DNA of 64,000 nt, taken from positions 558,001-622,000 of the forward strand of contig NZ_MBSS01000001.1 in the NCBI RefSeq assembly GCF_001695855.1. Direction: 5' to 3'. Within the stretch, counting starts at the first letter, position 1; every line of letters starts with the position of its first letter. Made by a program: the position numbers and the translations under genes. This DNA is from Ensifer sp. LC163. GTDB taxonomy: Bacteria; Pseudomonadota; Alphaproteobacteria; Rhizobiales; Rhizobiaceae. The notes beneath the pieces were generated by a model. That model saw nothing but the letters and a program-made list of their open reading frames with translations. It searched no databases and was not told where the DNA came from. Below are positions 22,004 through 26,689 of the stretch, piece after piece.

Positions 22004-23685
<1,682 letters not shown>

Positions 23686-26031
23686 ATGTTTCTCGACGAC
23701 GAAATCGCTGAATCACGGACACGTCAGAACGAAGCGCGATGGGGCATGGTTCTGGCGCTCGCAGCGCTCGCCGCCTGCATCGTCATGATCCTCGGGCTGA
23801 TGACCCAGGCCGCGGCCCAGACGGCAAACCCCAGGCCGGAGCAGATGGCCGGCTATGTCAGGCCCAACGACATGGGCACCGGCGCCCTGCTCTTCCCCTC
23901 CAAGGAGCCCGGCTATTTCGTCGAGGCGCCGCGACTGGCGACCGACGTCCAGATCGACGTCAACGGACCGATCATGCGGACCCGCGTGACGCAGCGGTTC
24001 CAGAACCCGAGCAAGGGATGGGTCGAAGGCACCTATGTCTTCCCGCTTCCCGATGATTCCGCCGTCGATACCCTGAAGATGCAGATCGGCGACCGCTTCA
24101 TCGAAGGTCAGATCAAGCCGCGCCAGGCAGCCAAGGAAATCTACGAGCAGGCAAAGGCCGAGGGCAAGAAGGCGGCGCTGCTTGAGCAGCAGCGCCCCAA
24201 CCTCTTCACCAATCAGGTCGCCAATATCGGCCCCGGCGAAACGGTGGTCGTGCAGATCGAATATCAAAGCGGCGTGCGCCAGTCGAACGACGCCTTCACC
24301 TTCCGTTTCCCGATGGTGGTGGCGCCTCGCTACAATCCGCAGCCGGTCGTCCAGACCGTCGATCTCGACAGCCGCACCGGCTATGCCGTCAGCGACCCGG
24401 TTCCCAATCGCGAAAAGATCGATCCGCCGGTGCTCGACCCGCGCGAAAACGCCAGGATCAACCCGGTGACACTGACGATCAACCTGAAGGCGGGCTTCCC
24501 GATCGGCGAGGTGACGTCGGCCTATCACGAGATCGAAACGTCCACGCTCGACCAGTTGACCCGCCGGATCACGCTGAAGGTCGGAAGCGTTCCTGCCGAC
24601 AAGGATTTCGAACTCAGCTGGAAGGCGATCGAAGGAAAGAGCCCCTATGCCGGCCTCTTTCGCGAGACCGTCGGCGATAAGACCTACCTCCTGTCCTTCG
24701 TCACCCCGCCGGTGACGGCAACGGAGACCGACAAGCCGCTCAGGCGCGAGGTCGTTTTCGTCATCGACAATTCCGGCTCGATGGCCGGCCCATCCATGGA
24801 ACAGGCAAAGGAAAGCCTGGCGCTGGCGATCTCGCGGCTGAAGCCGGAAGACCGGTTCAACGTCATCCGCTTCGACGACACGATGACCGTGCACTTTCCT
24901 GATCTCGTCGAGGCGACGCCTGATAAACGCGAGGATGCGATCGCTTTCGTGCGCGACCTGACCGCCGATGGCGGCACGGAAATGCTGCCGGCGCTGGAAG
25001 CGGCCCTGCGCACGCAGGGGCCGGTTGCATCAGGTGCCCTTCGCCAGGTGGTCTTCCTTACCGACGGCGCCATCGGCAATGAAGGCCAGCTTTTCCAGGA
25101 GATCCAGAACAACCGTGGCGACGCCCGCGTCTTCACCGTCGGCATCGGTTCGGCGCCCAACAGCCACTTCATGACCAAGGCCGCCGAATACGGTCGCGGC
25201 ACCTTCACGCTGATCGGTTCCGAAAGCCAGGTGGCCGCCCGCATGGGCGAGCTCTTCACCAAGCTGGAGAGCCCGGCCATGACGGACATTTCAGCAACCT
25301 TCGAAGGCGCCGCCTCCGGCGACATCACCCCTAACCCGATGCCCGATCTCTACCGCGGCGAGCCGGTCGTGCTGACGGTCGAACTCGACGGCGCCACACC
25401 GGAAGGAAAGCTTCGCATCGTCGGCAAGGCCGGCGACCAGCCCTGGCGCGTCGAGATGGACATCGCCAAGTCTGCAACCGGTGAAGGCATCGCCAAGCTC
25501 TGGGCCCGTCGCAAGATCGACGATCTCGAAGCAAGCGCGTCAGCGATCGCCGACCCCGCAACGCTCGACAGGCAGATCGAAACCGTCGCGCTGACCCATC
25601 ACCTCGTCTCGCGCGTCACCAGCCTTGTCGCCGTCGATGCGACGCCGTCACGCCCGGCCGGCGAGAACCTGACGGAAACCAATGTGCCGCTCAACCTGCC
25701 GGCCGGCTGGGACTTCGGCAAGGTCTTCGGCGAGAAGCCCGAAACAACAGGTGCGGTCGATGAGCGCGAGGCTTCGGCCGAAAGCCAGACGAAGCTGGCC
25801 ATGGTCACGGCCGACCGCATGCTGGCGGCACCGACGGCGCGTGCAGCGGGCCTCATTGCCGAAGCCAACAACGAGGTAAACCTGCCGCAGACGGCGACCG
25901 AGGCGGACAAGCAGATCCTCATCGGGCTGATGCTGCTCGCCTTTGCCCTTGTTGCCGGCAGCACTTTCATCTTCTGGCGCGGCCAGATCGCCGCTCTCGT
26001 CACCTCAGGGGTTCGACGCCATGGCCGCTGA
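23686..26031 (+). CDS. VIT/VWA surface protein with LPQTA sorting signal (sortase substrate)
   Basis: This 781-residue protein has an N-terminal membrane signal segment (about 20-45). A VIT domain follows (about 65-195; RVTQRFQNPSKGWVEGTYVFPLP and EQQRPNLFTNQVANIGPGE). The VWA domain (about 355-530) contains the metal-site DNSGS at 361-365. The C-terminus is a complete sorting signal: LPQTA at 733-737, a hydrophobic helix (743-763), and a basic RRHGR end. This architecture is the one known as the marine proteobacterial sortase target family. Its stop overlaps the sortase gene by 11 bases, so the enzyme and substrate are co-translated. The predicted position is periplasmic or surface, with an adhesive or matrix-binding VWA domain; the ligand is unknown. 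Confidence 0.92.
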   Translation: MFLDDEIAESRTRQNEARWGMVLALAALAACIVMILGLMTQAAAQTANPRPEQMAGYVRPNDMGTGALLFPSKEPGYFVEAPRLATDVQIDVNGPIMRTRVTQRFQNPSKGWVEGTYVFPLPDDSAVDTLKMQIGDRFIEGQIKPRQAAKEIYEQAKAEGKKAALLEQQRPNLFTNQVANIGPGETVVVQIEYQSGVRQSNDAFTFRFPMVVAPRYNPQPVVQTVDLDSRTGYAVSDPVPNREKIDPPVLDPRENARINPVTLTINLKAGFPIGEVTSAYHEIETSTLDQLTRRITLKVGSVPADKDFELSWKAIEGKSPYAGLFRETVGDKTYLLSFVTPPVTATETDKPLRREVVFVIDNSGSMAGPSMEQAKESLALAISRLKPEDRFNVIRFDDTMTVHFPDLVEATPDKREDAIAFVRDLTADGGTEMLPALEAALRTQGPVASGALRQVVFLTDGAIGNEGQLFQEIQNNRGDARVFTVGIGSAPNSHFMTKAAEYGRGTFTLIGSESQVAARMGELFTKLESPAMTDISATFEGAASGDITPNPMPDLYRGEPVVLTVELDGATPEGKLRIVGKAGDQPWRVEMDIAKSATGEGIAKLWARRKIDDLEASASAIADPATLDRQIETVALTHHLVSRVTSLVAVDATPSRPAGENLTETNVPLNLPAGWDFGKVFGEKPETTGAVDEREASAESQTKLAMVTADRMLAAPTARAAGLIAEANNEVNLPQTATEADKQILIGLMLLAFALVAGSTFIFWRGQIAALVTSGVRRHGR

Positions 26032-26689
26032 CGAAGACCTGCCCGGGCCACGCCCGGGCTTCCTCGCCCGTCTCTCGGCGATCGAGACCATCGTGGTCGC
26101 GATCATTGCCCTGATCGCCCTTGCCGGCCTGATGCTGGTCGGCAAGGGATTTTACATGAAGGCCAAGGCGGAGGTCTCTCAGGTGCTCTTGAAGAAGAGC
26201 TTCGAGGCGCAATTGCACGGCGAGGCGGGCGGCAAACCCTGGCCCTGGGCCGACTTCGAAACCACCGCGGAAATCATCGCGCCGCGCATCAATCGCTCGG
26301 CGATCGTGCTTCAGGGCGCAAGCGGCCAGGCGCTCGCCTTCGGGCCTGCCTGGCTCACCAACACCCCTCTTCCCGGCGACGAAGGCACCTCCGTCATCGC
26401 CGCCCACCGCGACACACATTTCCGCTGGCTGAAGGACGTTTCCTCGGGCGATCTGCTGGTGCTGACCCGCAAGGACGGGCGGCGCTTTCTTTTTCGGGCC
26501 GGCGAGGGCCGCGTCGCGCGCTGGGACGAAAGCGGCATCAACGCCGCAGCCAGTGGCCACAAGCTGGCGCTCGCCACCTGCTGGCCCTTCGATGCGATCG
26601 AGCCCGGACCGATGCGCTACATCGTGACGGCCGAACTGGTCGGCGAGCAGCATCCGGTGCCGCTGACGACAGGCTCCGTTTCGAAATAA
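26021..26689 (+). CDS. class GN sortase
   Basis: A 222-residue membrane-anchored transpeptidase with one N-terminal transmembrane helix (about 19-40). The sortase triad is complete: His129 in IAAHRDTHF, Cys187 in LATCWPF, and Arg199 in GPMRYIV. This matches the Gram-negative class GN sortases (marine sortase family). It should cleave the LPQTA signal of the preceding gene product between Thr and Ala. The acceptor nucleophile in Gram-negatives is not established. The start ATG 26021 lies inside the last codons of the substrate gene with AGGGG upstream; only one substrate is encoded nearby. Confidence 0.93.
   Translation: MAADEDLPGPRPGFLARLSAIETIVVAIIALIALAGLMLVGKGFYMKAKAEVSQVLLKKSFEAQLHGEAGGKPWPWADFETTAEIIAPRINRSAIVLQGASGQALAFGPAWLTNTPLPGDEGTSVIAAHRDTHFRWLKDVSSGDLLVLTRKDGRRFLFRAGEGRVARWDESGINAAASGHKLALATCWPFDAIEPGPMRYIVTAELVGEQHPVPLTTGSVSK

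Follow-up and report, generated by a model that had tools for sequence, protein, structure and literature searches.

A curated family model covers the class GN sortases, and the accessible part of one report calls their role in Gram-negative cells unknown (PMC10581121). The substrate of such a pair is already in print from Ensifer adhaerens as 'marine proteobacterial sortase target protein' (available text of PMC6637203), whereas its reported S. meliloti counterpart, SMc01580, is labelled hypothetical in studies of ChvI, acid (PMC2651895) and Clr. The class D enzyme of B. anthracis is SrtC (PMC7759979), whose acyl-enzyme accepts m-Dpm (PMC3297441), according to the accessible excerpts of both articles. 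Our literature search found no paper on a sortase with a VIT domain in Gram-negative bacteria, none under 'dedicated sortase system' and no experiment on cleavage or acceptor for this pair.

We analysed a 64,000-nucleotide stretch of Ensifer sp. LC163 DNA (the window), which contains such a pair on the forward strand. The substrate gene (23686–26031) encodes a 781-residue VIT/VWA protein that scores 861.6 bits against TIGR03788, the model for the marine proteobacterial sortase target, compared with a cut-off of 551.65. A putative N-terminal hydrophobic export signal (about residues 20–45, ending AAAQT; 23743–23820) is followed by a VIT domain at residues 86–193 (23941–24264; PF08487, E 2.6e-36) and a VWA domain at residues 355–507 (24748–25206; VWA_3, PF13768, E 3.3e-22). 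The residues that we take to form the VWA metal site (MIDAS), D361, S363, S365, T431 and D460, are kept in 51/51 aligned substrates. The best Foldseek match of the predicted model is ITIH heavy chain 1 (E 1.6e-37), and residues 666–739 (25681–25902) form a low-confidence, probably flexible linker (pLDDT below 50). The sortase gene runs from an ATG at 26021 to a stop at 26689 (222 residues) and shares 11 nt with the 3' end of the substrate gene, an overlap that suggests translational coupling of the two. Its product passes TIGR03784 (class GN sortase; 190.6 bits, cut-off 158.25), and the Pfam matches of both proteins (VIT and VWA; Sortase) are above cut-off. The sortase model (pLDDT 94.1) has a sortase fold with the catalytic His, Cys and Arg and one predicted N-terminal helix at residues 20–65. 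In an alignment of the window's sortase with 118 others, His129 (26405–26407) and Cys187 (26579–26581) are present in 119/119 sequences and Arg199 (26615–26617) in 118/119, with one gap; the earlier note's intact triad and residue numbering agree with this alignment, and its class GN assignment with the family model.

The substrate C-terminus, ...NEVNLPQTATEADKQILIGLMLLAFALVAGSTFIFWRGQIAALVTSGVRRHGR, carries the complete TIGR03788-type signal: the sorting motif L733-P-Q-T-A-T738 (25882–25899), a hydrophobic segment (25915–25977, within model helix 740–779) and the basic tail RRHGR (26014–26028). The translation of 23686–26031 confirms the full sorting signal that the earlier note had described. 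That note had also staked its reading on conservation of LPxTA among orthologues, which held: in the window's family sample plus 80 named rhizobial loci (L001–L100; 93 distinct pairs) the motif is LPQTAT in 89, LPKTAT in three and LPEAAT in one. The full set of 212 distinct pairs follows a looser form, [L/Y/M/F]-[P/A]-x-[T/G]-[A/S]-T, and outside rhizobia Gly is frequent at position 4 (22/212 pairs), which fits poorly with a strict T|A cleavage rule.

A single sortase is encoded in the genome, together with a single detectable substrate. A degenerate LPxTAT DNA pattern gave 52 matches genome-wide (73 for a reversed control pattern), of which the substrate's alone sits no more than 60 codons from the end of its open frame and has a hydrophobic helix after it. 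Rejected matches included an ABC-type ATPase ending in LPQTATL-stop, which has no hydrophobic helix, two motifs in multi-pass proteins with long tails behind them (182 and 317 residues), a match on a 26-residue frame with an 84-residue, Ala-rich tail, and another whose sequence contains a stop. A profile search of the same genome with 40 C-terminal signals recovered the substrate gene at E 3.0e-19 and nothing else convincing (next 0.11). The equivalog scores and the single qualifying LPxTAT match rule out a chance motif.

Judged by its sequences, the pair is a known one and no new system, because both proteins pass NCBI's equivalog models. The kind, hardly studied so far, is common in rhizobia and scattered through Pseudomonadota: in a phylum-wide sample of 398 genomes, 33 had a sortase above cut-off. 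Of 151 genomes sampled from the family, 18 exceed the TIGR03784 cut-off and exactly these 18 also exceed that of TIGR03788, with none discordant. Named rhizobial loci numbered 80 among the matches listed, with 107 confirmed. In all 80 the sorting signal adjoins the sortase, and 77 have the same two flanking neighbours, a divergent aspartate aminotransferase-like gene and a PQQ-type dehydrogenase-like gene. The rhizobial loci and the family and phylum samples rule out a marine-only or rare pair; these counts and the published Ensifer copy do not bear out the earlier note's view of a rhizobial occurrence as distinctive, while its statement that the attachment role in a Gram-negative cell is unsettled matches the accessible text of PMC10581121. 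The full VIT/VWA protein is present in 78 of the 80 loci; the other two have lost the whole VIT/VWA part and retain the sortase, the export signal and the sorting signal, a loss that counts against a one-substrate anchoring model.

We then compared sortase columns with each motif position in a tree-controlled covariation scan. L112 of the sortase (26354–26356), which precedes His129 in a loop and is putatively part of the S3 subsite, covaries with Pro/Ala at motif position 2 (MI 0.425; next column 0.228). In 1500 tree simulations this value was reached 0 times at that column and twice at any column (family-wise p 0.0020; 0.002 × 7 = 0.014 over seven motif tests). The tree was a quick LG+G4 one with 25/120 inner branches starred; locus L229, with an unreadable motif, was dropped beforehand and locus L258 was omitted by the tree program. 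L112 was the sole column with a family-wise p clearly below 0.05; positions 1, 3, 4, 5 and 6 gave no useful sortase column, the lowest other values being 0.0500 (position 3, N174) and 0.053 (position 1, G172), with 0.85 the best at position 4. An independent-pairs test on supported branches yielded just one or two pairs among those listed. At the L112 site, an Ala motif is mostly accompanied by Asn, Thr, Arg or Gln. No residue classes enter the test, and 'polar' is a label picked post hoc. L112 falls in the beta3/beta4 loop by the model's secondary structure and, by alignment, presumably corresponds to A104 of S. aureus SrtA, a known Pro/Ala selectivity site. The covariation and this correspondence indicate that the neighbouring genes are very probably enzyme and substrate. 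The Pro/Ala choice is set in the same loop by Tyr229 in SrtE1 and by A104H in SaSrtA, according to the accessible part of PMC5148588.

The dedicated histidine kinase of related systems, TIGR03785, reached at best 150.4 bits in this genome (cut-off 612.2; all 36 candidates scored) and, at E 1e-60 with the 12 best candidates per genome scored, was found in 0/38 genomes of the window's class compared with 38/42 others. At E 1e-35 the sortase-associated OmpA-like protein PdsO (TIGR03789) was matched neither in this genome nor in any of the 38 of its class, and in 16/42 genomes of other classes. The response regulator TIGR03787 was seen beside one pair from another class. For SMc01580, whose upstream region is one of three, out of 19, that bind ChvI (accessible text of PMC3687685), induction in acid is described (PMC10659215; PMC2651895), and the gene has served as a reporter in S. 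meliloti (PMC10659215). It goes down in S. meliloti symbiosis whereas the Ensifer counterpart goes up with roots (available text of PMC6637203), an opposition that counts against our preferred model. RL3273, a VWA protein from a Rhizobium attachment study (accessible part of PMC11406972), was left aside as a possible counterpart. Upstream of the substrate gene lies a conserved non-coding block of 23 bases (23352–23374, no strand assigned). Of 69 other intergenic regions, 32 contain it at −282 to −337 with 18 or more bases matching, and it is a candidate regulatory site for this gene or the divergent aminotransferase gene.

Among solved sortases, 2ln7, a class D enzyme of B. anthracis, is closest in sequence (E 4.7e-10, next 0.052; by profile comparison 6.6e-24, next 2.3e-13). 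The window's sortase scores below the cut-offs of the class D profile NF033746 (75.2 bits, cut-off 165) and the class E profile (36, cut-off 160). Structure comparison ties class A, C, E and F sortases with class D (Z 19.1–19.9), and Foldseek did not single class D out (E 1.6e-12 versus 2.3e-12).

The preferred reading, to which we give a probability of roughly 0.57, is a one-enzyme, one-substrate anchoring pair that joins the VIT/VWA protein to a peptidoglycan amine. We infer cleavage, acceptor, location, envelope role and ChvI control in this species as follows. The C-terminal helix of the exported VIT/VWA protein would keep it in the inner membrane, and the sortase, anchored there through its N-terminal helix, would have its catalytic domain in the periplasm. 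Cys187, assisted by His129 and Arg199, would cut LPQT|A, and the new Thr C-terminus would pass from the thioester to an amine, most likely the meso-diaminopimelic acid side chain of lipid II or a peptidoglycan stem, which we propose by precedent of B. anthracis SrtC with LPNTA. An ITIH-heavy-chain-like metal-site domain would thereby be tied to the wall through a long flexible linker, and sinorhizobia probably express the pair once ExoS/ChvI detects acid or envelope stress. We counted the 18/18 co-occurrence, the equivalog matches, the L112 covariation, the proximity to 2ln7 with the m-Dpm acceptor of SrtC, the ITIH-type fold, and the ChvI binding and acid rise of SMc01580 in its favor. The structural tie of the other sortase classes with class D, Gly at motif position 4 and the lack of a significant covarying column for that position count against it, as does the unmatched PdsO, which would have fitted a peptidoglycan link.

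It is doubtful that the acceptor is instead an amine on lipid, LPS or exopolysaccharide, through which the protein would reach the outer surface and cross-link the matrix. The substrate has an invariant metal site and the predicted fold of ITIH heavy chains, which offer a loose analogy in their transfer onto hyaluronan, but the ITIH bond is an ester formed without a sortase. Lipid anchoring of archaeosortase substrates is the topic of PMC7157517 in its accessible part, and SMc01580 was grouped with exopolysaccharide genes in ChvI (PMC10659215) and Clr studies; however, none of the genes adjoining the pair was recognised as one for glycosyl or lipid transfer. Release by water, which would set the VIT/VWA domain free in the periplasm, possibly for later export, is improbable: an acceptor is unreadable from sequence and PdsO-type wall partners are unmatched at E 1e-35 in 38/38 sortase genomes of the window's class, but hydrolysis is usually a slow side reaction of monoderm sortases. 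The enzyme is also nearest by sequence to class D, with its reported m-Dpm acceptor (accessible text of PMC3297441). A locus without an enzyme–substrate relation, in which the C-terminal helix serves as a plain membrane anchor while the sortase acts elsewhere, is very improbable given the unbroken co-occurrence in the 151 family genomes, the covariation at an S3-type site, the lack of any other substrate-like LPxTAT or profile match in the genome and the sorting signal kept beside the sortase at two loci without the VIT/VWA part.

Building on the anchoring model, a tentative joint reading is that rhizobial ExoS/ChvI took over a sortase pair that has its own kinase in other proteobacteria, so that acid or host peptides might place an ITIH-like, metal-dependent adhesion domain covalently on Gram-negative peptidoglycan, while specificity may have drifted between Pro and Ala through changes focused on a single S3-site residue, which would make the sortase-substrate pairs naturally orthogonal. 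New here are the L112 covariation, the single sortase with a single detectable substrate, the 0/38 result for kinase and PdsO in the window's class and the link to ChvI-bound, acid-induced SMc01580. The locus unites two descriptions of one gene, 'hypothetical' and 'sortase target' (available text of PMC6637203), and opens the question to tests in genetically tractable rhizobia, with one enzyme, one detectable substrate and an existing S. meliloti reporter gene. Through the Pro/Ala covariation, recognition can be probed by specific mutations, and ligases of changed specificity may follow.

Among known systems, the ITIH heavy chains (ITIH1, ITIH4) share the VIT and VWA fold (Foldseek, 618 alignment columns, TM 0.53 by query length; ITIH4 sequence match E 5.3e-25) but are animal plasma proteins without a sortase signal. 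The substrates of B. anthracis SrtC (class D; BasI/BasH) are, to our knowledge, unrelated to the VIT/VWA protein. Of the solved structures, that of SrtC (2ln7) is the nearest in sequence; the enzyme cleaves LPNTA at the T–A bond, where the motif here is LPQTA, and its operon comprises substrate, sortase and a two-component system (accessible text of PMC3297441); its host is a monoderm spore former, and the present sortase falls below the class D cut-off. In Streptomyces coelicolor SrtE1, a class E enzyme whose class cut-off the window's sortase misses, the P3 Pro/Ala choice is ascribed to the beta3/beta4 loop, the place of L112 here (accessible part of PMC5148588), with a bulky Tyr for Ala in contrast to the Asn, Thr, Arg or Gln mostly seen here. 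From the class GN TIGR03784/TIGR03788 pair the locus differs in its rhizobial rather than marine host and in a genome without an over-cut-off TIGR03785 kinase or PdsO at E 1e-35, and it resembles that pair in passing both curated cut-offs and in having the adjoining genes and C-terminal signal of the 212 pairs.

We located the substrate ORF at 23686-26031 and the sortase ORF at 26021-26689, with the residues that the earlier note had assigned to them. Its designation as a class GN sortase and target pair also held, as both NCBI equivalog models (TIGR03784 for the sortase and TIGR03788 for its target) matched well above cut-off. VIT, VWA and Sortase were the Pfam domains recognised in the pair, and the genome has one Sortase-domain match. 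An aspartate aminotransferase-like gene lies upstream and divergent and a PQQ-type dehydrogenase-like gene downstream, both named by best similarity below the curated cut-off. Between the aminotransferase and substrate genes, positions 23352-23374 form a conserved block of non-coding DNA whose core is nearly palindromic. Of 69 other such intergenic regions, 32 contain a match to at least 18 of its 23 bases, located -282 to -337 relative to the substrate start; the best match averages 16.2, versus at most 13.6 in 200 shuffles. The divergent aminotransferase gene may be the one that this block serves. Among 15 close relatives, a second stretch (about 23578-23603), some 100 bases before the substrate start, is also conserved.

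The strongest evidence that the neighbours are enzyme and substrate came from sequence covariation. The set comprised 124 pairs below 82% sortase identity, of which the tree includes 123. At motif position 2, where 13 rows lack proline, Leu-112 in the loop before the catalytic histidine stood out among 179 sortase columns (mutual information 0.425, next 0.228). This residue is Asn, Thr, Arg or Gln in 11/13 non-proline rows, the remaining two being Phe and Ala; it is polar in 9 of 109 ungapped proline rows, the rest having mostly Leu, Val or Met. In 1500 trait simulations on the tree, the p value of the association was 0.0007 for the column by itself and 0.0020 family-wise. The tree was built quickly, has many poorly supported branches and carries about ten changes; a test on independent pairs had no power. 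None of six further motif covariation tests fell clearly below 0.05. In the AlphaFold sortase model (mean pLDDT 94.1), Leu-112 begins the loop that connects a short bridge (110-111) to the strand (122-127) leading to His-129. The printed profile alignment sets this stretch opposite GTMKAD of Lactobacillus SrtA, with Leu-112 at the Met. We take that Met to correspond to Ala-104 of the S. aureus enzyme. According to the available parts of the sources, A104H goes together with a switch in specificity from LPETG to LAETG, and Tyr-229 of SrtE1, at the analogous site, is proposed to favour Ala (PMC5148588); the switch took 11 changes, A104Y alone being insufficient (PMC5148588; mutant list in PMC9126251). 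The pairing is supported because an unbiased scan hit a known selectivity site for exactly motif position 2.

The LPxTA motif, whose conservation the earlier note had proposed as a check, reads LPQTAT in 89, LPKTAT in 3 and LPEAAT in 1 of 93 distinct pairs from the family sample and the 80 named rhizobial loci. All fetched loci together gave 212 distinct pairs, headless pair types counted in. Motifs were picked by an iterated profile demanding a hydrophobic stretch behind the motif, a few picks being possibly wrong. Position 1 is L in 168, Y in 13, M in 11, F in 10 and others in 10; position 2 is P in 198, A in 13 (one from a certainly wrong pick, L229) and L in 1; position 4 is T in 185, G in 22, A in 2, S in 2 and P in 1; position 5 is A in 200, S in 10 and G in 2; and position 6 is T in 192, L in 10, S in 6, A in 3 and N in 1. 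A degenerate LPxTAT DNA pattern hit 52 places in the genome versus 73 for the reversed control; after translation, from 30 loci returned by the search and 22 fetched stretches, only the substrate gene had a near-end motif followed by a hydrophobic helix. A profile of 40 C-terminal signals, which alone covered LPxGAT-type substrates, scored the substrate gene at 3.0e-19 and the next at 0.11. An ABC-type ATPase ending in LPQTATL-stop (L294) has no hydrophobic helix and was rejected as coincidence.

Asp-361, Ser-363, Ser-365, Thr-431 and Asp-460 of the substrate fit a VWA metal site and are kept in 51/51 aligned proteins, selected from 133 that were long enough. The substrate model (mean pLDDT 79.6) best matched ITIH heavy chain 1 (Foldseek E 1.6e-37, 618 columns, rmsd 6.3), which makes its rigid part an ITIH-like head; the linker ahead of the motif (666-739, pLDDT below 50) looks flexible.

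TIGR03784 exceeded its cut-off in 18/151 genomes sampled from the family, 36/199 from the order, 20/240 from the class, 33/398 from the phylum and 39/321 from the class of genome G528, all samples that overlap one another. The family-sample genomes above cut-off for TIGR03784 and TIGR03788 were the identical 18, with 0 discordant; 3/14 control genomes gave TIGR03784 matches, 0 above cut-off. In named genome contigs at least 80 sortase loci were listed and 107 confirmed. The 80 carry titles of Ensifer, Sinorhizobium, Rhizobium, Pararhizobium, Agrobacterium or "Rhizobiales bacterium"; the aminotransferase gene is present in 80/80 and the dehydrogenase gene in 77/80, starting 35-274 bases past the sortase match. 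In these rhizobia the pair occupies a stable place on the chromosome and is no mobile oddity. Identity of the window's sortase to Ensifer adhaerens loci, up to 96% among the matches listed, places the strain close to Ensifer. The pair is real, belongs to a known kind and is widespread among rhizobia, and the earlier view of it as a distinctive feature of this genome is not upheld.

For seven sortase matches (L159, L160, L186, L260, L261, L262 and L269) the DNA read around them contains no substrate gene, and 7/7 are below the GN cut-off. Three of them (L260, L261 and L262) come from genomes of one family code, f250, where the kinase family occurs on other contigs in 2/2 genomes searched; L186 (G332:C1:577801-597800) is a second, weaker sortase with no VIT gene nearby in a genome that also has a normal pair. 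The weak sortase match at L158 was undetected by the sortase profile built here. L020 (G053:C24), which lies at the end of its contig, is an extra pair with the motif LPEAAT in a genome already having one pair, and a genome with one sortase match carries a second, sub-cut-off TIGR03788 relative (G065:C300:946-2889, 456.8 bits).

A complete VIT/VWA protein is encoded in 78/80 listed rhizobial loci. In Rhizobium vallis (L093, 7411-7866) and Rhizobium sp. Root1203 (L095, 7349-7870), the gene before the sortase retains the export and LPQTAT signals, but all that corresponds to the window's protein from about residues 84-96 up to 705-723 is missing. The deletion, about 1.9 kb versus relatives, is clean and in frame, its end points differ, and neither locus contains an N. 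Either anchor and sortase are able to outlive the head, or these are early decay or assembly errors.

PdsO (TIGR03789) adjoins the pair in four scanned loci, all outside the window's class, and the TIGR03787 regulator does so in the one locus scanned for it, also outside that class. The TIGR03785 kinase lies close to the pair in some genomes (G528), far from it in others (G462, G165). Among 80 sortase genomes, it was found at E 1e-60 in 38/42 of other classes, probably gammaproteobacteria, and in 0/38 of the window's class, identified as alphaproteobacteria from relatives' names, with the window's own genome among the 38; the best 12 candidates per genome were scored, and 21/80 genomes exceeded the curated cut-off. 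At E 1e-35, PdsO was found in 16/42 (12 above cut-off) and 0/38, respectively. Thus, the rhizobial pair is a stripped version of the system.

The regulator of the rhizobial pair may already be known from S. meliloti. Going by its number, SMc01581 is possibly the sortase gene there, SMc01580 being the reported counterpart of the substrate gene. In the portions available of the papers, the E. adhaerens OV14 copy is matched with SMc01580 at 80% (PMC6637203); SMc01580 is among three ChvI-bound upstream regions of 19 tested (PMC3687685, relaying an earlier study), its reporter becomes more active at pH 6, an effect curtailed by jspA and lppA deletions (PMC10659215), and it falls in an early acid-response cluster (PMC2651895); SMc01581 is called a direct target of the ChvI system, induced by nodule peptide NCR247 (PMC12486126, preprint). 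The term "sortase" is absent from those portions of PMC10659215, PMC3687685 and PMC12486126. SMc01580 is also listed in studies of mutants without phosphatidylcholine (PMC8343143) and of Clr (PMC5498481). By analogy across species, the window's gene may be ChvI-controlled. The pair gains interest from a substrate choice backed by covariation, reduced partners and a likely regulator known from a relative, which together make the acceptor question testable in ordinary laboratory rhizobia.

We place peptidoglycan m-DAP first as the acceptor, at a probability of roughly 0.57. Of the solved sortases, the B. anthracis class D enzyme is closest in sequence; in structure comparison class D ties with classes A, C, E and F, and these ties and the headless loci slightly reduce our confidence. 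Release of the substrate, with water as acceptor, and transfer to a lipid or polysaccharide both stand behind attachment to m-DAP, which is favoured because of the sequence resemblance to class D, the presence of m-DAP in the Gram-negative wall also, and precedents in other bacteria. In the parts of the sources available, the class D enzyme SrtC of B. anthracis cuts LPNTA between T and A with m-Dpm as the nucleophile (PMC3297441), and in Dickeya and Brucella other enzymes join proteins covalently to peptidoglycan (PMC12274547).
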